Assembly (NCBI GenBank): GCA_018398765.1
Contig: JAHBMJ010001176.1
Location: forward strand, 1-28,023
Direction of reading: 5' to 3'
Origin: Chromera velia
Taxonomy: Eukaryota; Sar; Chromeraceae
Length of the DNA stretch: 28,023 nt
In this document: piece after piece, positions 4,027 through 27,660 of the stretch
How the letters are laid out: each line of letters starts with the position of its first letter
How positions within the stretch are numbered: the stretch's first letter is position 1
Notes under the pieces: model-generated
Seen by the model: only the letters and a program-made list of their open reading frames with translations
Told to the model about the DNA's origin: nothing
The model's database searches: none
Program-made: the position numbers and the translations under genes

Positions 4027-4582
4027 TCACCCTCCTGTCCAGCACCGCTCTTCCCACACAGCCAGCTCTGCCCTCTTCCGAAACGCGGTCTCCCTCAAGA
4101 ACTCGAGAGAGTCCATACCCGGATCGGCACGTTCGAGCGGGGGTGCCTCGAGTTCGGATTGGTAGGCGCCTCTGTCATTCGGGAATGTCTCTCGGAGAAA
4201 TGCCCCGATTCCTCTTGCGTAGGTCGGTTTGTTCATGATCCGTAGGGGGGGTCCCTCTCTGGCAGGAACGAAAATTTCGCGTTTGAGGGCTTCGAGCTGC
4301 TCTGGAGTCGGTTGTCTGTACGTGACCCCCTCCCACGTCCACTCTTCGACCGGTGGGACGAATTGATCCTGAGGCGTCTCCTCCATAGGATTCCCTTCGT
4401 ACATCTGGTAGTAGTCAGCAGAAGGATCGCCCCGGGGGCAGTCGTAGGGTCCGGGGGTGCCAGCGGCAAGGGAGTCTTCGGGGGGTAGGTAGAAGGGGGA
4501 GGGGGGGGGCATTGGCCTGGATCGGTTGATAGAGGTTGTCCCTTTGGGGATCTGGTTGTCCTTTTTCACCTTCCTGCCTCCC
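4027..4582 (-). CDS. Terminal exon encoding an unrecognised C-terminal region
   Basis: An open frame of 184 codons ends in TGA (4029-4027). It is Pro-rich at first (MPPPSPFYLPPED), then becomes Trp/Glu/Arg-rich (VEEWTWEGVTYRQP; later FRKRAELAVWEERCW). Composition is balanced and unlike the low-complexity shadow frames nearby, which argues that it is truly coding. The acceptor chosen is GCTAG before 4582. It joins in phase to a small exon at 5237-5171. No known family is recognised. If the upstream joins are wrong this is the last exon of another gene. Confidence 0.6.
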
Positions 4583-6994
4583 CTAGCGGAGGTAGCAGAC
4601 ACCTTGAGTAACAGTCACTGCCGCAGCCGCTGTTTGATCGCGCTTGAAGGCCCTCGGTCCTCCCTCTGCTTCCCCTGCCCCTTCCATAAAAGGGGGCAAC
4701 GGAAGGGCTGCAAGGTCCTTTCGGCGGTTTCTGCTGCAACACCGTCATTGAGGCCAACAGAAGAGAGGGGAAACGAATTCCTTTTTCTTTTGTTTGTTTT
4801 GAAGGAAAATTGCAAAACGAGGCATGCATGCATGTATTGGCAGAACGTGAAAGGAAATTTCAGGGACAGCAAAGGCACGTACGAACGCGTAAACGCATGT
4901 CGGAAAGAGAGGATTTGACTTCAAAAAAATTCATGCAGAAACCGCACAATAAGAGAAAGAGCACTGCCTAACTGGACGCCTGCAACCAACCGTGCATGCA
5001 TCGACCAGACTCAGCTAGAGCTAGCTGTCAGTTGTTTTCTTTCAGGCATTCAAACACCCACAGCCGCGCAAATGACCCTTCCCCGACACGAAGCCGTGGG
5101 GTGCCTGTCGGATGCCTCCCTATCGCTTTTCACGATTTTTCGCTAGCTTTGTCTCACAGTGTCAACTGACCGTCGAGCTTCATACCTCTGCTGAAATAAT
5201 TTGTTCAATTTCGCGCTACCCACGCTCCTCGGAGGAGCTGCACGAAAGCGGTTTGGAGGTTTCAAACCGATTAATCAAATCGCAAAACAAGAGCTGACAA
5301 AAGCGTAGTGTCACGGAACGCGCGGTACATGATTCGGAAAGGTGAATTTGCATAACGGCAGTGCTTTTCGTTTTATTGCTTGTCAAAATGGAAAGACCGC
5401 AACACTCTTTGACCGGAACACTTTTGAAACATTCTGCTGTGTTGAAAAAGCAGGAAGTTGCCAGACAAGTACAAGCTCAAGTAAGATATGGTTGTGTGAA
5501 TGCGCCCACTTTTTATCACTGCTCCCCTAAGGCTTCAAAAGCTTGTCCGGTCTTATCTGCGTTGTGTGAAACCTCTCAAAACTGTGTGCATGGCAGATCT
5601 GCCTTCTTGCTGAATAGAGAGAATAGAGAAGGCCGTCAGACAGAGTACGGGTGCCCGTCTGCCTGCCAGATGTTTGAGATCGAGGAAATGCGATCAAGAA
5701 GGGTGCAGAGAATCAGAAAGACAGGCGGACACTGACCTTGTTCCTCTTTTCGGCGCCTGGGGGGGGTCCCCGTGTCCGACGGCTGCAGCGCAAGGAGGAG
5801 CGAAAAGAGCACGAAACGGGTGAAGCCTCCCTCCCTTCCTCCGTTTGCATAATCACAAAACCGACCGCCAGAAGGAATTGAGATTGTGCTTTGTTATGCA
5901 GAGAAAGTTGACACGCAACAGAGGAGAACTCTAGACACGAGTACACGCGATACACAACCGGCCTTTAAACGCAGAATCGAAGCTAGGGAGTCCGGTCAAT
6001 ACGAATGAAAGAAGAAAGGCAGGGAAAATGTCTGTGAGTGTCACTGAAAAGAAACTGCGTAGTCGAGAAAGATCGAAGAAGGCAACTTATGCACAGGGGG
6101 GGGGGAGAGAAACAGGATGAAAACGAAGGGAATTGCAAAGCAGCGATCAGAGGATAATGGTTGTGCAGGAGTCAGCACGTCTCCCGGAGGGATCGACCAA
6201 TACCTCCTGCGTGGTTCTGGTTACACATCCATCTAGCTGTCGACGGAGGCCTGCCCCGTGCGCACTCTTTGCTTCCTTCCTTCTTTCCTTCCTTCTTTGA
6301 TCAGTGGACTCACTCACTCACTCACTCACTCACTCACATCGATGAGCTCCGGTGCTTCCTCCTCGTCTTCTTCATCGCCGTCCTCCTCGCCCTTGCCAGA
6401 CCTTCAGGACAATAAGCAAAAAAGGGGAGACGCAAACAAGAAAAAAGAGACAGACGAGAAGAGGCCGGCCCACGATCAAAAGCACAGCAAAAAGATCTCG
6501 GCAACAGGCACAGTCTCATGAATACAGACCAACAAGCCGAGAGATAGGGGCACGGCCAAGGGGGGCAAGTCAGATGGGTGCGCTAATAGTTCTTTTCCAT
6601 TGCATCACCATCAGAGCCTTCGATCTACCTCCGTGTGTGGGGTAACAAGCGTCAGCTTGTCTTTCGGAAGATAGAAAAAAAAGAGTGACGCACAGCTTCT
6701 CGAGGGATCAAAAGAGAAGAAACAAACCAAGACTCACGGAAGGATTTGTCCGACGATGCACACTTCTGCTCCGTCGTCTCCTGAGACCTCCAGGGTGATC
6801 TCGTCGTCGATGTGGGCAGAGCACGTCACGGTGGGCTTTTTGTCGGTCAGGACAAGCAATGTATGAGAGAACCCATTCACGACCGCGCGCTTCCCCTCGA
6901 GGAGCACGGCATTTCTCAACTCGATGCCGTCCTCCTCGTCAGTGGGGAACCACTCAGCCTTCCCGCCTGTTTTAATCTGTGCGCCCCACAACAT
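4027..6994 (-). CDS. Nucleoplasmin-like domain protein, five-exon model (329 aa)
   Basis: Minus-strand exons: 6994-6738, 6401-6338, 5782-5737, 5237-5171, 4582-4027; together 990 nt, an exact multiple of three. Donors are GTGAGT, GTGAGT, GTCAGT, GTCAGT; acceptors CTGAAG, CTGCAG, GTGCAG, GCTAG. Residues 1-85 look like the N-terminal nucleoplasmin-like fold of FKBP39/46 and HD2 proteins: it opens MLWGAQIKTGG and closes VCIVGQIL. Residues 86-107 are strongly acidic (EEDGDEEDEEE), and a basic patch with PRRRKEE follows. Known relatives form pentamers that bind histones in the nucleus, so a histone-chaperone role is likely. The C-terminal 184 residues, Pro-rich then Trp/Glu/Arg-rich, match nothing I recognise; there is no FKBP domain. 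Exons 1-2 are well supported. Exons 3-5 rest on splice signals and phase, so the last exon could belong to a separate gene. Confidence 0.55.
6311..6337. repeat. CACT microsatellite covering a 5' splice site
   Basis: Nearly seven CACT units; on the coding (minus) strand this reads GTGAGTGAG..., beginning exactly at the donor of exon 2 of the nucleoplasmin-like gene. Several successive GTGAGT donors, each 4 nt apart, are therefore available. Confidence 0.95.
6738..6994 (-). CDS. Exon 1: nucleoplasmin-like (NPL) domain
   Basis: The ATG at 6994-6992 begins MLWGAQIKTGGKAEWF, close to the MFWG...VKPGK opening of NPL domains in insect FKBP39/46 and plant HD2 proteins. A middle segment LRNAVLLEG occupies the place of the usual helix-like SQAAL motif, and the end AEVCIVGQIL corresponds to the last strand. 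The exon stops at a perfect GTGAGT donor (6737-6732) with two leftover bases that join cleanly to exon 2. An upstream in-frame stretch lacks an ATG with a better fit, so this start is preferred. Confidence 0.72.
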
Positions 6995-11887: not shown

Positions 11888-13560
11888 GTGGGAGCACTCG
11901 TACAACCCAAGGAGAGAAAACGAAAGCCAACTCATCTGAGGAAAAGTGAAAAGAAGGAAAAGGCTGTCGCACCTTGGAGAGATCAAGAATGCAGGGAGGT
12001 TCAGAAGAGAATTAGATCCGCAAAAAGGGAATGGAAGGAAGAAAGGGAACTCTGGGCGGATGAAGACGAGCGGTGCATCATAGTAAAGAGAAAGATGAAC
12101 AGGTTAAATAGAGAGAGAGGGAAGTTGATAGCAAGAAAAAAGAGAAAGTATGCCATTCTTCAGGCAGAGAGACTCGCGGAAGAAGCTGTTAAAGACTCAG
12201 CAGCCCTATGGAAATGGAGGAGGGAGAGAAAAAAAGCAGAGAGTGGGAGTGAGGGAGAAAAGCCGTCCACCTTTTTGTTTTCAAATTTTTGGGCCGATGT
12301 GTTCAGTAGGGACGGACTGGAGCCTCAAAAGAAGGATGAAACACCAGCTCCCCCCCCGGTACCTTTCTTCTCTTTCGATAAATGTGAGAAGATACTGAAG
12401 GCAATCGAGTCGGACCTAAAGAAGGCAGCCGGCCTCAAAGGAATCTCCGCTGCACAGGTACATTTATGCTTTTCCTCTTCTCGTCTGTCTCGTTTTCTTC
12501 TTTTCATTTTCTTCAATCTTTTTTTCCTTTTTTCTTTCTGGCCAGAAAAGTGGAACTTCATTTGAATCGCTCCTGTTCCAAAAGGTCACGTCTCTCCTTC
12601 TTGTGACGAATGGAGGCCCATACACATCGTCTGCCTTCTGGCAAAGTTGTTCGCGTTGTTGATGGATGGCCGGTTAAGGGAGACAACGAATATAGATGAA
12701 CGACAGGTAGGTTTCAGGAAGGGGGTCGGTACAAGGGAAGCGATAGCTGCTCTTTATACTCTCACGGCTTCAGCAAAGAAGGGACACAAACCTTGCAGCG
12801 TTTGTTGACTTCAGCAAGGCATTTGACTGAGTACCCAGAAAGAAAATGATTGACAGACTTAGAGAGGAAGGAGTCAGCGAGAAGGACGTGTGCATGATTC
12901 ATTCCATGTATATGAATGTGTGGGGAAGGGTGGATGGGTCGGATTGGGTCTTTCCCGAAAGTGCAGGGGTAAAACAGGGAGATCCACTTTCTCCTCTTCT
13001 TTTTCTTTTGTTTATTAATAATATTCATTCTGCTCTGAGTATTGAAGGGAGGGAAGCTGTTAACGGCTTGGATGGGGAATCAGATACGGATGAAAGACAG
13101 AGGGGGGGAGAATGCGGAGAGAGGAGGGAGGAGAGTGAAACAACGGAGCAGCGACCCCGTATCCCTGAGGAGGTAAGATTGGCAGACTTACTGCTTGAGA
13201 GCATAGGTTACGCAGACGATCTTGTTATTTTTGTTCACTCTTCTTCTGACCTGCAGTGGCGTTTGGACCGTTTGGCCTCTTATTGTCAGGAACATGGGTT
13301 GAAAGTGAATTTAAAGAAAACAAAAGTTCTCGCACTCTCAGGCTCATGAAGGGAAATAGAAGGGGAAGTAACTTTTGAAGGGAAGACAGTTAAACATGTA
13401 GAGAGCTATAAATACCTTGGGTGTCGTGTATTTAAGGGAGGGGACCCACGAAAGTCAGTCAGGGACCGACTTGAAAGTGCTGAACGCTGTTTGGGGGCAG
13501 TGATGGACACTTGTTCATCCTTAGGTCCTTTGTCCCCCCGATGCAAAGTTTATTTACTGT
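11888..13560 (+). pseudogene. LINE reverse transcriptase region, interrupted
   Basis: A Lys/Arg/Glu-rich linker leads into RT. Visible blocks are APVPKGH and EWRPIHIVCLLAKLF, RQVGFRKG, DFSKAFD (motif A, followed at once by TGA 12828-12830), GVKQGDPLSPLLF (motif B), and GYADDLVIF (motif C, YADD at 13209-13220), then VNLKKTKVL and YKYLGCRVF of the thumb. Defects are TGA at 12563, a frameshift near 12795, TGA at 12828, TGA at 13347 and TAG near 13559. The segment between motifs B and C is unusually long and charged. Confidence 0.85.
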
Positions 13561-15922: not shown

Positions 15923-17868
15923 TCAGTAGTACTCTACAGACTGTGCAGGGAGCTGGCCGCTTGTTGCTGCGGCGTCGCCCCCCCCATATGCGTTTGGGGG
16001 CTGGGGCCCATAGTCGATAGTCCCCCTCCCCCCTCCGTCTACTCCTCCACCTGCATACCTAGGAAAGGGCTCCTTCTCCCCCCTCCCGTCCGCCTCTTCC
16101 TCAAAGCTCTTGTATCCCGCCCCTGGAACAAACGAGTCTCCAGGGAATCGGAGAAGACTCGCTGGTTTGCTGTTGAGGAATTGATAGTATTTGAGGATGA
16201 TCAGAATGAAATACGCACTGAGCAGGAAATCCACAGTGAACGCGGTAACGTAGCAATACCGCGTCCACTGACAGAGACCCTGTGCGGATATGGTCTCGAG
16301 GGTGGGATTCCAGTTTTGTTCGGACTCTGAACTCTGCAGCCAGGTTTCGCACTTGGCCAGGGTGATCCTGCAGAGAGAGACAGACACAAATCGAAGGAAG
16401 AGCGGAAGGGGAGAGGACAGAATGCAGCAGGGAGTCAGTCGGCGAAACGAACCAGAAGACAGCGGGACAAAAGAAAAGAGGAAAATCAGGAGAGAGACCG
16501 CAAAATCAAAAGAGGAAACGGCCATGGCTCAGCAGAAACCAGGATGAGGTCCGTGTTGAAAGAGAAAAGAGAAGGTAGAGGGAAGGAAACAAAGGGAAAG
16601 CTGCAGTCTCTCTGTTACAGCAGACTGTCTGAATCAGTCATAGACCTGGATCAAAAAGAAGAGGGAACAGAGAAGAAGGAAGGGAAATGCAGGGAAGGAG
16701 GCAAGAAGACACGATAAGAGAAAAAGCAAGACAAGAAAAGACAAGACCAGGGGGAAGAAAAGAAGGGAAGGGACACAAGGAGAAGACGAGACAAGTGAAG
16801 ACAAAGGAAAGGAAGAAGAATAAAAAAAAGGGAGAAAACAGACGAAGAGGCAACAACCGAAGAGAAACGAACGCAAGAAACACGGAAAAGCCCAAACAAA
16901 AATTTGAAGAAAACAAAAAACACAAAGAAAACAACCTACAACAAAAAATTTCGTTGGGGGTGTAAACACACACACGAGGGCGGAGAACAGAAGGATCGAA
17001 AGATGCGTACCGGATGAAGCGTTTCAGAGCAAATGAAGAGGATGCATGACGCGAACAGCCCCCCTCAACAGGCTACCTCGTCACGCCCAATCCGATTCAA
17101 AAAGTTGAGCGTAAAGGCGGATAGCGGACACACACGATTGGGCAGTCAATTGACGCAAAACAACTCTTGAAATGCAACAACAAAAAATAAGAAAACTTGC
17201 GAGGTAAAATGGCGGGATCAGCATGTCGTCTCAGTGAAAAACTGCTTACGGATAAGCGGAAGAATGCATTTACATGCTAACAGAGAAAGCGAGAGCAACT
17301 GGGGAGAGCGGGGCGGATTGGTAGAATCGGAGACGGGAAAGAAATTTCAGAAAAAAGGAATGACGGCAGAAGAAAAGAATACCAGATGCACGAGGGCAAA
17401 AGTGAAACATCAGAACAACTTTTCGGAGCGAACGATGAGGATGAGACAGCTGGGGTTCGCGTTTTCTTCCTCACGGCATTCTCGACAGAGACTGCATGAC
17501 TGTCCGTCCATCCGAACAACACAGAAACAAGATACATGCAGAGAAAAGGAGACTGACATGTCAGCTGTGAAGACCGCCACATTGGTCGCTGTCCGCAGTC
17601 CATAGTACGCCAGGAAGGCGAGGATATACCTTGCTGAGTTGTCGTGTGCTCCCAGACAGCCGAGGAATCCGAAGATCATCCCAAGAGATCCCACGATCCC
17701 CGAGACGATCATCGTGGCATGGGAGTATCCACCGCTTATGAACCGAACATCTTGGAGGAACAGACCAATGAGACAGACAAGACCTGACAGAAAGATGAAG
17801 ATGCCAAGCATAAACACCCCAAGCCGTGTTGGGACGCATATGCAGCAGCGTCCCAGGTTCTCCCCCAT
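15923..17868 (-). CDS. Four-transmembrane-helix protein, two exons (251 aa)
   Basis: Exons 17868-17558 and 16367-15923 (minus) total 756 nt, joined in phase at GTCAGT / CTGCAG. The ATG at 17868-17866 gives MGENLGRCCICVPTRLG; the nearby Cys residues 8, 9 and 11 are candidates for acylation. Hydrophobic helices lie at about 17-38, 51-73, 79-101 and 143-163. The loop between helices 3 and 4 has Cys 110, 136 and 142. A tail of about 85 residues is acidic, then Gly/Pro/Tyr-rich, and ends SVEYY. The topology resembles tetraspanin, MARVEL or LAPTM4-like proteins, and the CCxC...R.G opening is most like LAPTM4, but the tetraspanin CCG motif is missing and no family is firmly recognised. It lies head to head with the polytopic gene at 18562. 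The 1190-bp intron is long, and an extra small exon cannot be excluded. Confidence 0.72.
16640..16960. repeat. Polypurine tract in the intron of the four-helix gene
   Basis: About 320 bases are almost entirely A and G on the plus strand, so pyrimidine-rich on the coding strand. Open frames read through it are a by-product of composition. Confidence 0.85.
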
Positions 17869-18561
17869 CCTCACTTGCTCTATTTCAACCTGATCGTCTG
17901 CACCGTCTCACAGCATTTCGGCCCCAAGAGCCAGTGTGCAAAAGGAAAAAGCGATCAAAGCCTCAGACCTCGGCGCACATCTGTCGCCCACTCGAGCACT
18001 ATGTATTCCTACCCACTGCCGACAGCAAAGGGGGCCAAACGCGTTTATCAGAGAACGATCGTGGCAGACATTGTCAGACAAGTGTGCCACTGCGTGTGAG
18101 TGAGTGTCACTCTAGCTATATATGATGATTGCATGGTTCTGCAGCTATATAAGTTACCCGCGGCCTGCCCGGCCCGCCCGGAGCCGGGCCGGCCCGCCGG
18201 CCGCGGGTGCTTGCATGCTACATTCGCTTTCCCGGAACGCACGCACGCGCATGTTGAGCTGACATTGCGGGGCCGTGATGGCCAAATTCGATCGATCGAT
18301 GTATACACACTGCTACACAGAGCAGCACTGAAGACCGACTGTCATGGGCCTGTCACATTGCACCCGACTTTGACTTGGAGTGTATATTGTACATTGATCA
18401 CGGATGTGTGCATGAAGACCGACAGAGCGTGGTCAATGCATGGTTGGCAATTCTTCGCACGAATTCCATTCACCATTGTGTCAAAGACTGAGTTCTGTTG
18501 TGTTGCACAATTGAGTTGAAGCTTTTCAGCACTGGTGCCCCTTTCCAGAGGCTCAATAGAA
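17869..18561. promoter_or_regulatory. Divergent intergenic region between two membrane-protein genes
   Basis: The start codons of the minus-strand four-helix gene (17868) and the plus-strand polytopic gene (18562) face apart across 693 bases, so the region should contain both promoters. It holds the GC hairpin at 18157-18207, a TGCATGC word (18212) and a GATC run (about 18290-18299). No TATA box or initiator could be assigned; shared regulation is inference from the layout. Confidence 0.4.
18157..18207. repeat. GC-rich hairpin
   Basis: An almost pure G/C block has outer arms CCCGCGGCC (18157-18165) and GGCCGCGGG (18199-18207), with further imperfect pairing inside. It sits sharply between ordinary-composition flanks. 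It could form a stable stem in DNA or RNA, or be a repeat-family relic like the block at 7285. Confidence 0.75.
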
Positions 18562-22999: not shown

Positions 23000-23291
23000 C
23001 TAGCTTGGTGCCTCGGCAAAGTCCTGTTGGTGCTTGATGAAGGAGAGGTACTTGACTGCCCCTGCAGTCTCCTCCCGCTCCCCCCTCGCCACCAGCTCCC
23101 GGTGAGTGCCCCCCTCAACCACCACGCCCTCATCAAGGACCAAGATCAGGTCGGCACCCCGAATGGTCTGCAGACAGACAGGGAGGGGTTGGACAGACAC
23201 CGACAGCAGAAACAGGAAGACGGAAAAAAGGATGCAAGGAACCAAAAAAAGACGGAAAGGAAACGAAGACAGACGCGCGCGCGCGCACGCA

Positions 23292-23338
<47 letters not shown>

Positions 23339-23576
23339 AAGGAAGGAAGGAAGGAAGGGAAGGAAGGAAGGAAGTAAGGAAGAAGGAGAGGAGGGAGGGA
23401 GGGAGGGAAGGAAAAGAGGAAGGAAGGAAGGAAGAAAGGAAAAGAAACAAAGGAAAAGAATTCTTTACAAAGGAAAAGAAAGAAAGCAAAACAAGAAAGA
23501 AAGAAAGAAAGAAAGAAAGAAAAGAAGAACAGAAAGAAAGAAAGAAAGAAAGAAAGAAAAGAAAGAAAAGAAAGAA

Positions 23577-23608
<32 letters not shown>

Positions 23609-26600
23609 AAAAAAGAGAGAAAGAAAGAAAGGAAAGAAAGGAAGGAAGGAAAGAAGGAAGGAAGGAAGGAAGGAAGGAAGGAAGAAAAAAAGAAAGAACG
23701 AAAGACAGTCAGAAAGAAAGAGCAAAAGAGAGACAGAGGAAAGAAGAGAGAAAATGAAAGGAGCGGGAAGAGGCAAAAAAGAGCAAAGTAGAGAGACAGA
23801 GAGATGGAAAGAAACATCAAGAGGAAAGGAGATGAAAGAAAAGAAGAGAGGCATCGGACAGGGCAAAGGGATGTTGCAACACAAGCGACATTCAGGTATC
23901 TTTGGTTTCCACCCATAAATGCACTCACGCTCCAGCTGTACCTCTTGAGGGATTAGAGAGAGTCAGGGAGAGAGGGGGAGTCGCACAGCAAACAGAGAGA
24001 ACCGCAGACAACAGGTAAACATGCGAAAAAAGACAATGGAAGGAAGAACGAACAGAATGAACCATGAAAGAGTTCCAAGCGAACGATAAGGACCACCTTC
24101 ATGGACAACCGACCGACTGAATCACTCCCTCACCCCCCCACCGACCCACCGACCCACCCACTCACCGAGAGTCGATGTGCGATCACGATGGTCGTCCTTC
24201 CCTCTCGGAGTTCCTCCAGGGCCTTCTGCACTGCCGCCTCCGATTCTGAGTCCAACGATGAAGTGGCCTCGTCGAAGATGATGATGCGGGGCTGACCGAT
24301 AACCGCGCGTGCAATCGCCACTCTCTGCTTCTGCCCCCCCGACAGCTGAGTACCCCTGCCCCCGCACACGGAGTCGTAGCCCTGAGGGAGACGCTTGATG
24401 AACTCGTGTGCGTTCGCTATGCGTGCAGCGGCTTCAACTCGCCTCTTCACTTCTGCATGCAGACAGTCCAGCAAATTCACAGCAAGCACGATGAGAGAAT
24501 GAACGCTCAGGCATTGGGTGACAATGCTAACGACAAAAAATCAACGCAGAGACCTGCTTTCCCCACACTTTCCCCCTTCGCTTGCTGCACTGAGAACAAA
24601 AATGATCGACAGAGAAACAAAGAAACAAAGCTCTGACCGACCCTCAGCACCCAGACCCCCCCACAGAGAATCCGAGGACCCCCCCTCCCCCTTCATTCCA
24701 CCCCCCCCTCCTCCTGGATCGCCAAAGGAAGAGTTCCCCCCGACAGGCACAAGCAATTCCGTCTCATCGTCGGAATGTCGCAGCACTCGTGAAGGAAGGC
24801 CGTCAAGCTCCCTTCCTTCATCATGAAGAGACGGGGGCAGTGAAGGAAGACCGTAGGCAATATTCTCAAACACAGTGCGGTTGAACAATTGAGGCTCCTG
24901 TTCAACCACGCCGATCTGTTGACGCAACCAGTGAGGAGACAAATCCCGGATGTCGGTCCCGTCAAGCCGAATTGTCCCCTGTTGGGGTTCATACAGTCGT
25001 TGGATGAGCTTTGCAACCGTCGACTTGCCGCTTCCTGAGGGCCCCACCAGGGCAATCATCTGAGAGGGACGGGCCTTAAAGGAGATCCCCCGAAGAACGG
25101 CCGCACTCTCATCTAGACCCCCTCCTTCGTCTATCAATGGTCCCCCCTCCCGCCCACTTTCCCCTTTAGTCTTCTTCACCCCTCTGGAAGTACCCCTAAA
25201 CCAAGAGGACAGAGAGTACGAGGAGGAATTCAGGGATAATGATGGAGGTCTGTGACTTGATGCTTTCAACTCCTCACTCAGATGCACTGTCCCACTCAAC
25301 GTCGAGTTTCCCCCCTCCCCAACCGCAAGACTATGCGTGTGCCCCCCCCCTTGATGGTGCTGCTGTGATGATGCTGAATTCCAGGTTCGCGACGAAGAGG
25401 AAGAGGAAGACGACGATTCCCACAGTTGCCACAGAGCACCCTCGTCCCTCTGTTTCCTTTCCCTCTCCCTCTCTGTATTACTCTCAGACAGACACAACGA
25501 CATGCAGATCTCGTCCTCGAGATTGCACTCACAGACTCCGCCCAGCAATTTGCACTGATGGGGCTGTCGTGTTTCGCCTGCACACAGTCAGCAACTCGCT
25601 CATTGTGCCATCTGTGCATCCAGTCAGATCGCCGCTCTTTGGCCCTCCCGGGTACATGATCACTCCCTACATGAGTGGAGAGAATCGCGGCATACAGAAA
25701 CGCCTATTGGAGAAGAAATGAGGCAAAGAATCCAATAATGAGGACGGAGAGTAAAAACGCGATACTTATTATTTTGGTCCGGTTTCTGTTTGTTTCTTCT
25801 GCTCAAGACATCACGGCGTAAATGGATACACCCCAAAAAACAACTCAGACGAAGAAGTAAGTCTTATACCCTTTTTGGCAGAGGGATTCTGAGTCCGGAC
25901 CGACACGTCAAGTCAGCCGCTTGTTCTCTAACAAGACAAGAAAAAGTCATTTTCGCATTGCGCGAGTGAATAGCAGCAACCGGTTCCACCCACCGTCAAG
26001 GTCTTCATCATCTGTCGCCCCACAACGATGAGAAGAAGATGAAGGCAGAACCCCCGAGGCCCCCCCTTTTGCCGCCTCTCCAGCATGAGAGTGCGACCCC
26101 CCTCCCCCGAGGTCCCTGTGCGAAGAAGCAGACGCAACTGAGGAACCCCCCCCTTCCTCTCCTGAGACAGAAGAGGACCTACTAACCCCCTCCACTTTCC
26201 TCCCCCCTCCCCCCCCAGTGCCCGGATAGGAAAACCAGACGTCCTCGAATTCGATCACCCCCTCACAGGACGAGGGCGTCAGACCCCCAAACGGGCCAAT
26301 TTCAGGAATTCTGTCGACCAACTCAAAGTACCTCTGCACACACCAACAACACAGGCAGGCATGTACACAGGCACAATGCATCATCTGGGAGGGATATGCA
26401 GCTCATCACATCCCCAAATTGACCAGGGCAGTGATCTGAACGATGCATTCACATTCACATGCACCAAGAGCACTTCTCAACGGGGTGGGAGAACCGAAAA
26501 AAGAGAGATTCTTCTTTCGTCTGGAACCTCTCACCTAAGCGCCCCAGTCGGACCTGTCGCCCTCTCCCCGCCCAACACACAAAGCACTCACACATCCACG

Positions 26601-26994: not shown

Positions 26995-27660
26995 GAAAGA
27001 AAGAAAAGAAAGAAACAGCTTGCGTGCACTGCGAACAAAACAAAAGAATGAAAGAGAATCGCCGCAGAGAGAGCAGAGTCTATCCACAAGTGACAAAGGG
27101 AAAGGAGAGAGCAGAGTCTATCCACAAGTGACAAAGGGAAAGGTAGTCTATCTCATTCAAATCCCTTTCTGTTAGCCTCTCTCTCTGTCCCTCACTCCCA
27201 CACACCTTCCAACAGTAAGAGTCCCTCTCAAAACCATGACCATTCCTGCAAAGCAAACAGACATAACAAGGTATCGGAAAGAACAAAATTTGCACTAGAA
27301 AGCAGAGAAGCAATGCTTCAAAGTATGCGGGTCAGCCTGCCTGGTTAATGTTCACGGGGGAACCAGACATGCATGAAAGGTTGGTCAGCAATCGAGCCGC
27401 CGGAGCCGGACGCTGAATTTTTTGGCGGGAGCCTGGAACAATCAATCACTTTCAGCGACACCCCTCTCTTGCCTGTGCAATCTTCGCCGCTTCCGTACTG
27501 GATCGAGGCTTCCGTACTGGATCGAGGCTTCCTCACTGGATCGAGGCTTCCTGACTGGATCGAGGCTTCCTTACTTCAGACCAGGCGGATGCCTGTTGCC
27601 GACTGACCGAATGCGAGCAGGAGGATATCCGTTCCTTGAAAGAGCAGCTGCCGGAGATAC
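23000..27660 (-). CDS. ABCB-type half-transporter, 3' part (partial, 7 exons, about 640 aa)
   Basis: Exons 27660-27608, 27245-27206, 26759-26660, 26333-25994, 25577-24642, 24452-24166 and 23167-23000 join in phase (1924 nt after one partial codon base) and end in TAG. The gene continues beyond the window. Exons 1-3 encode the end of the transmembrane domain ([10 protein letters not shown], then [12 protein letters not shown]). The nucleotide-binding domain has an A-loop Tyr (VWFSYPG, residue 100 of this part), Walker [10 protein letters not shown] (356-364), Q-loop EQEPQLF (Gln 404), signature LSGGQ (526-530), Walker B IIIFDE (Asp 550, Glu 551), D-loop SSLD and H-loop His 582. All ATPase residues are present, so it should hydrolyse ATP to move a substrate across a membrane as a dimer. 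The pattern is closest to TAP/ABCB-type exporters; substrate and membrane are unknown. Two long low-complexity inserts (about residues 104-334 and 421-489) are unusual. Confidence 0.85.
23276..23720. repeat. Compound CG-CA-GA microsatellite and long GGAA/GAAA polypurine tract
   Basis: A CG run passes into CA, then GA (to about 23336), followed by some 385 bases of GGAA, GGGA and GAAA units. Less regular purine-rich DNA continues to about 23875. All of it lies in the last intron of the ABC transporter gene (23168-24165), where the coding strand is pyrimidine-rich. Confidence 0.95.
26817..27010. repeat. GGAA/GA/CA compound microsatellite in an ABC-gene intron
   Basis: GGAA units, a GA run, more GGAA/GAAA, a short CA run, then GA and GAAA again. 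It lies in the intron 26760-27205, with pyrimidines on the coding strand just upstream of the acceptor at 26760. Confidence 0.95.
27067..27142. repeat. 38-bp tandem duplication
   Basis: Two adjacent 38-base copies (27067-27104 and 27105-27142), beginning GAGAGAGCAGAGTC, are identical or almost so. They are intronic in the ABC transporter gene and look recent. Confidence 0.9.
27491..27566. repeat. 19-bp minisatellite, four copies
   Basis: Four 19-base units of the form TTCC(G/T)(T/C/G)ACTGGATCGAGGC, with a fifth partial unit after 27566. It is intronic (27246-27607), ending about 40 bases from the donor of the first exon seen. No spacers, so not CRISPR-like. Confidence 0.9.

Follow-up and report, generated by a model that had tools for sequence, protein, structure and literature searches.

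Two low-complexity inserts, probably translated, in the nucleotide-binding domain of a predicted ABCB-type exporter from Chromera velia

In human ABCB1, the A-loop and the Walker A motif are spaced about 26 residues apart. For a gene on a contig of Chromera velia, an earlier note made from the DNA letters alone had counted 256 residues from the A-loop Tyr to Walker A of an ABC nucleotide-binding domain (NBD), and had described a further insert of about 65 residues between the Q-loop and the signature. The question raised by this locus is whether such inserts are part of the mature protein, and, if so, whether they are tolerated additions or serve the transporter.

Gene model and class of the protein

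The window, which is the whole contig of 28,023 nt, carries the 3′ part of the gene on its minus strand; the 5′ part is missing because the contig ends at 28023. Exons were inferred from the DNA sequence, splice-site scores and open frames (Table 1). Joining them at GT-AG junctions gives a partial protein of 640 residues, in which no stop precedes the final exon and the stop codon comes after this NBD. The last exon is 58% identical over 31 amino acids to each of two paralogues (loci L059 and L061). Upstream of the NBD lie exons that resemble TM5-TM6, by eye only, and the contig ends before the rest of the TMD. The TM6 exon has a coding score of +17.6 bits in frame (26762-26671), and 30 of its residues gave no Pfam match.

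Table 1. Predicted exons, introns and inserts of the gene in the window
Feature	Position	Strand	Remarks
Inferred exon, TM5 region	27608..27660	-	CATGCAG acceptor, GTCAGTC donor; TM5 likeness by eye
Inferred short exon, TM5-TM6 loop	27206..27245	-	TTTGCAG acceptor, GTGTGTG donor; likeness by eye
Inferred exon, TM6 and following helix	26660..26759	-	TM6 likeness by eye
Exon B: VWFSYPG (A-loop Tyr), then insert 1a	25994..26333	-	Acceptor 10.2 bits, donor 8.1 bits
Insert 1a, Ser/Gly-rich	25994..26222	-	Within exon B
Intron, 416 nt, phase 1	25578..25993	-	Coding score negative in all frames
Exon C: insert 1b, Walker A, Q-loop, ENIAYG, insert 2	24642..25577	-	Acceptor 12.6 bits, donor 10.8 bits
Insert 1b, Ser/Gly/Glu-rich	25111..25577	-	Part of exon C; centre 25196-25501 may be intron
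NBD first half, Walker A and Q-loop EQEPQLF	24850..25116	-	Pfam PF00005, 3.1e-22
Insert 2, Gly/Leu/Ser/Glu-rich	24642..24849	-	End of exon C
Intron, 189 nt, phase 1	24453..24641	-	Splice scores; coding score negative in all frames
Exon D: LSGGQKQR signature, Walker B, H-loop IAHRLS	24166..24452	-	Acceptor 14.4 bits; Pfam PF00005, 1.1e-11
Last exon with stop codon	23000..23167	-	Inferred by joining GT-AG junctions

Both halves of the NBD matched PF00005 in Pfam. The A-loop Tyr, Walker A, Q-loop, LSGGQ signature, Walker B and H-loop are all intact and in order in the predicted protein, and the earlier description of the catalytic residues as intact was thus confirmed. ABCB4 and ABCB1 top the list of solved relatives of the first half (best 60 of 463), and pgp-1 and ABCB4 top that of the second half, exon D (best 60 of 532). 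In both lists, the closest solved relatives are ABCB proteins and not members of ABCC. The gene segment in the window encodes the C-terminal portion of a predicted P-glycoprotein-like (ABCB-type) exporter, most likely of Chromera velia.

Repeats and other elements were also seen in the window. The intron of about 1 kb ahead of the last exon (23168-24165) contains long AAAG/AAGG microsatellites, and a 19-bp unit is repeated 4.6 times with 94% matches at 27489-27575, in an inferred intron of the same gene. On the plus strand, a reverse transcriptase fragment (PF00078, 4.8e-14) marks a retroelement at 12831-13346, and the open frame at 217-1221 has an end that resembles a retrotransposon polymerase by eye, with no Pfam match at E 0.01. 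A weak tetraspanin-like match on the minus strand (17413-17907; PF00335, E 0.0093) lies under the curated cut-off.

Evidence for translation of the inserts

The spacing of 256 residues was reproduced when counted from the Tyr to the first Gly of Walker A in the two-exon model (26333-25994 joined to 25577-24642); the same distance, from A-loop aromatic residue to Walker A, is 26 in NBD1 of the paralogue C2035. Insert 1, put earlier at about 230 Ser/Gly/Glu-rich residues, comprises 232 residues in the full model, including 48 Ser, 40 Gly and 21 Glu. Its run of nine Ser lies at 25416-25390 (TCG TCG TCT TCC TCT TCC TCT TCG TCG). Insert 2 has 70 residues, 66 of them extra relative to human ABCB1, and the Q-loop Gln lies 122 residues from LSGGQ. 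The residues S/G/E/K/P/Q/R/D make up 66% of insert 1 and 70% of insert 2, compared with 52% of the remaining NBD part.

Splice sites were scored with matrices built from 26 donors and 23 acceptors, chosen by eye in two paralogous genes. Strong acceptors at 26333, 25577 and 24452 and strong donors at 25993 and 24641 (scores in Table 1) coincide with the boundaries drawn in the earlier note. Other fairly strong sites lie within the inferred introns (acceptor 24584, 12.0 bits; donor 25904, 7.9 bits). An extra exon at 25703-25530 was considered and rejected, its acceptor falling below the 2.5-bit listing threshold.

Coding potential was scored with a 3-periodic model, for which 25 search loci supplied 13,632 nt of ABC exon and 7,349 nt of intron sequence as training data. 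The training left out the C4039 loci (suspected bacterial-like genes), L015 (stops), the window's own loci, loci repeating others or parts of C2035 and C1963, and one aligned C2035 stretch. Because it was trained on folded domains, the model is probably biased against low-complexity exons. Insert 2 scored +18.9 bits in the model frame and insert 1a (26219-25994) +20.1 bits, with +36.3 bits in another open frame. Within insert 1b, the model frame scored +0.6 bits at 25577-25531, -3.5 bits at 25530-25377 and +9.5 bits at 25376-25117. Both introns flanking exon C were negative in all frames.

The open frames carry unequal weight. Over the 459 nt tested of insert 1b, stops are absent from the model frame but present in both others, and the model frame stayed open in only 8 of 2000 dinucleotide shuffles. 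Insert 1a was open in 538 of 2000 shuffles, with one other frame open too, and insert 2 in 382 of 2000; the openness of these two is, alone, weak evidence for coding.

A small gene finder was run in six settings with introns of at least 100 nt, and a second version allowed introns down to 40 nt. The 100-nt minimum was chosen after the 40-nt result was known, on the grounds that the 25 marked intron stretches start at 134 nt (approximate). With introns of at least 100 nt, all six settings made insert 1a exonic at 0.96 or more, insert 2 and 25195-25117 exonic at 0.99 or more, and 25577-25533 exonic as well. The centre of insert 1b varied with the setting, from 0.26 to 0.98 exonic at 25532-25377 and from 0.10 to 0.98 at 25376-25196. 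In a check on a paralogue stretch, three introns were recovered at hand-picked donors, that gene being in the training set. When introns down to 40 nt were allowed, the two settings with full coding weight left insert 1a exonic at about 0.7 and insert 2 at 0.99; the part with the Ser run fell to about 0.05 and 25376-25117 to about 0.36, and the top parse shifted frame inside insert 1. When coding scores were dropped in a third setting, the Walker A half itself was only 0.67 exonic.

This variation bears on the length of insert 1. A real but shorter insert 1, of about half the length, is possible, although we consider it unlikely; in that case 25501-25196 would form a further or alternatively retained intron. 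This stretch of 306 nt is in phase and includes the nine-Ser run, whose TCN codons could serve as a polypyrimidine tract. When the order-2 coding model was given full weight, this stretch became an intron in 81% of sampled parses; the negative coding score at 25530-25377 and the parses with 40-nt introns, which likewise make the Ser-run stretch intronic, point the same way. However, the acceptor would be weak (25195, 3.3 bits) and the donor moderate (25501, 4.8 bits), and a single uninterrupted exon was favoured in the remaining five of the six settings (72-95% of parses). Additionally, the Ser run changes at third codon positions alone and never at the first two, a post hoc observation consistent with selection on the protein. 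Depending on whether the centre of insert 1b is intron or exon, insert 1 would comprise about 130 or 232 residues.

Overall, the inserts are real and probably translated. The strong boundaries, the intact catalytic motifs and the positive coding scores of insert 1a, 25376-25117 and insert 2 agree with the earlier proposal that they are translated rather than decayed. With introns of at least 100 nt, that proposal was supported for insert 1a, for insert 2 and for the two ends of insert 1b, which are all exonic, but the support no longer extended to all of insert 1 once 40-nt introns were allowed; it was weaker for the nine-Ser stretch, which some models make intronic.

Tolerated expansion and its alternatives

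We consider it probable that the gene encodes a working ABCB exporter in which both inserts are translated as tolerated low-complexity loops. Insert 1 would leave the domain after the A-loop strand and before the next one, and insert 2 would sit after the Q-loop, ahead of the helix preceding the signature, both as long loops that are presumably disordered, as judged by composition. Since the inserts fall outside the conserved motifs, the predicted pump should bind and hydrolyse ATP and export its substrate normally, the inserts having at most a modest influence on function. Low-complexity expansion that the protein tolerates is the most likely origin of the inserts and the most likely reason for their persistence, with precedents in further proteins of the genome and in those of apicomplexan relatives.

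Searches covered 177.8 Mb of the genome in 4040 contigs. Among 11 readable ABCB-like NBDs (two each in C2035 and C1963, one each in C3757, C3921, C425, C3630, C2396 and C1867, and that of the window), nine are without an insert in the loop between A-loop and Walker A, including those of the closest paralogues C2035 and C1963; the count left out C3601, C2741 (which ends before the loop) and further ABC loci. The NBD in C1867 (L066, about 4343-5788), ABCB-type by its solved relatives, carries 23 extra residues in the same loop, in the stretch VPPSSSSSGGSKGEGKGGEKEKEKATRRE. This insert is likewise rich in Ser, Gly, Glu and Lys, and it needs no splicing because it sits in one 928-codon open frame. 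It differs from the NBD of the window in its spacing of 49 residues rather than 256 between A-loop and Walker A, in its single open frame and in being without a long insert after the Q-loop.

Comparable inserts occur in other domains. Another ABC NBD (L010, ABCG-like by eye) has a Ser/Gly-rich in-frame insert, as does a kinesin motor domain (L070, contig C125, minus strand), which includes six Ser in a row. Of the 134 kinesin matches listed, 114 are stop-free, and 8 of these 114 span at least 30 codons beyond the profile; 122 of 197 candidates were scored, and stop-free introns could explain some of the 8. Such Ser/Gly-rich in-frame inserts elsewhere in the genome favour tolerated low-complexity expansion. 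In the literature, the Chromera velia CCMP2878 assembly (193.66 Mb, 5953 scaffolds) is described as rich in low-complexity regions (PMC4501334).

Insert 1b was also considered as a repeat, and its only match in the genome was itself, in a search that passes over simple repeats. The pieces 25575-25105, 26330-25992 and 24849-24541 matched no family in Pfam. Among titles and abstract openings, we found no paper on this gene or on inserts in Chromera NBDs. A study on Chromera and mercury (PMC6920818) reportedly names ABC transporters.

Although we favour tolerated expansion, the inserts may instead be regulatory, with phosphorylation of a Ser-rich loop beside the A-loop modulating NBD dimerisation or ATP binding, as in CFTR; we regard such a role as rather improbable. 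Insert 1 occupies the same loop as the regulatory insertion of CFTR (residues 405-436, PMC3776845; phosphosite S422, PMC8240754), and 48 Ser in 232 residues would offer many potential phosphosites. Predicted phosphosites are abundant in those disordered regions of ABC transporters that lie outside the domains (PMC13257379). However, the lack of insert 1 in the closest paralogues and the similar Ser/Gly runs in the kinesin and in the other ABC domain of the same genome argue against this role. A more specific version, in which a phosphoregulated insert like that of CFTR, up to 232 residues long, evolved independently and alternative splicing of its Ser-rich centre possibly acts as a loop-length switch on ATP binding, is conceivable but very unlikely.

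Removal of both inserts by introns, which would restore normal spacing in the mature NBD, appears slightly less credible still. Simple repeats abound in two of the gene's introns, so low complexity alone is no proof of coding, and donors of moderate strength lie within the inserts (26186, 6.5 bits; 26182, 5.7 bits; 25493, 6.5 bits), the first two of which could serve such removal. However, the only acceptors of at least 2.5 bits from 25577 to Walker A are 25195 and 25074 (4.6 bits), and the latter would cut into the domain. Likewise, donors from ENIAYG to 24642 reach at most 3.9 bits, compared with 10.8 bits at 24641. On these splice-site scores and on the exonic posteriors obtained with introns of at least 100 nt, full removal was judged unlikely. 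A decaying pseudogene with loops freed from constraint is the least probable reading, for although the contig ends inside the gene and leaves its 5′ part unseen, the NBD motifs are intact, the predicted exons hold no premature stop, the splice sites are good and the core shows coding bias.

Comparison with known insertions in ABC transporters

The NBDs of ABCB1 and ABCB4 share the motifs of the window NBD in the same order but have no long insertion behind the A-loop. From the YG that follows the Q-loop to the ANAHEF-like helix, human ABCB1 (structure 6qex) has 66 residues fewer than the NBD of the window. At the same place, the structure 8jvh, which we take to be PfMDR1, has about 45 residues more than 6qex. 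With insert 2 and the start of exon D as the query, 56 sequences of solved structures matched at E 1e-10, none of them before query residue 67, which corresponds to the last few residues of insert 2 or beyond; PfMDR1 gave no match outside the exon D part.

NBD1 of PfMDR1 of Plasmodium falciparum has an insertion after the Q-loop, and the insert of its NBD2 follows the P-loop (PMC3164660). The NBD1 insertion resembles insert 2 in lying between ENIxYG and the helix preceding the signature. In contrast to the NBD of the window, no insert between A-loop and Walker A is named in the description drawn on here (PMC3164660). Apicomplexan ATM1 proteins also carry lineage-specific insertions of unclear role, namely 128 amino acids in PfATM1 and a predicted 48 amino acids between D- and H-loop in C. 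parvum ATM1; these lie at other positions, and none of the insertions described there falls in the loop of insert 1 (PMC11476691).

The closest parallel in position to insert 1 is found in CFTR. Presumably, the A-loop residue W401 and the position of Walker A place the regulatory insertion of CFTR between the A-loop strand and Walker A, as is insert 1 in the predicted protein, and the likeness is one of position only. The regulatory insertion of CFTR NBD1 (residues 405-436) is disordered, its removal stabilises the domain (PMC3776845), and it contains the phosphosite S422 (PMC8240754). It differs from insert 1 in its length (32 residues compared with about 130-232), in belonging to an ABCC rather than an ABCB protein, and in that its phosphorylation is established. 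By analogy with CFTR and PfMDR1, which carry insertions at matching places (PMC3776845, PMC3164660), the earlier suggestion that both inserts fall at surface loops is plausible.

This kind of insertion is already known; what is unusual is how long the insert beside the A-loop is. If insert 1 is translated, the stretch from the A-loop strand to Walker A of an ABCB NBD may accommodate well over 100 additional residues, and the motif spacing of animal proteins should be applied with caution when protist gene models are judged. The insert would then be several times as long as the regulatory insertion of CFTR, in a lineage unrelated to CFTR.
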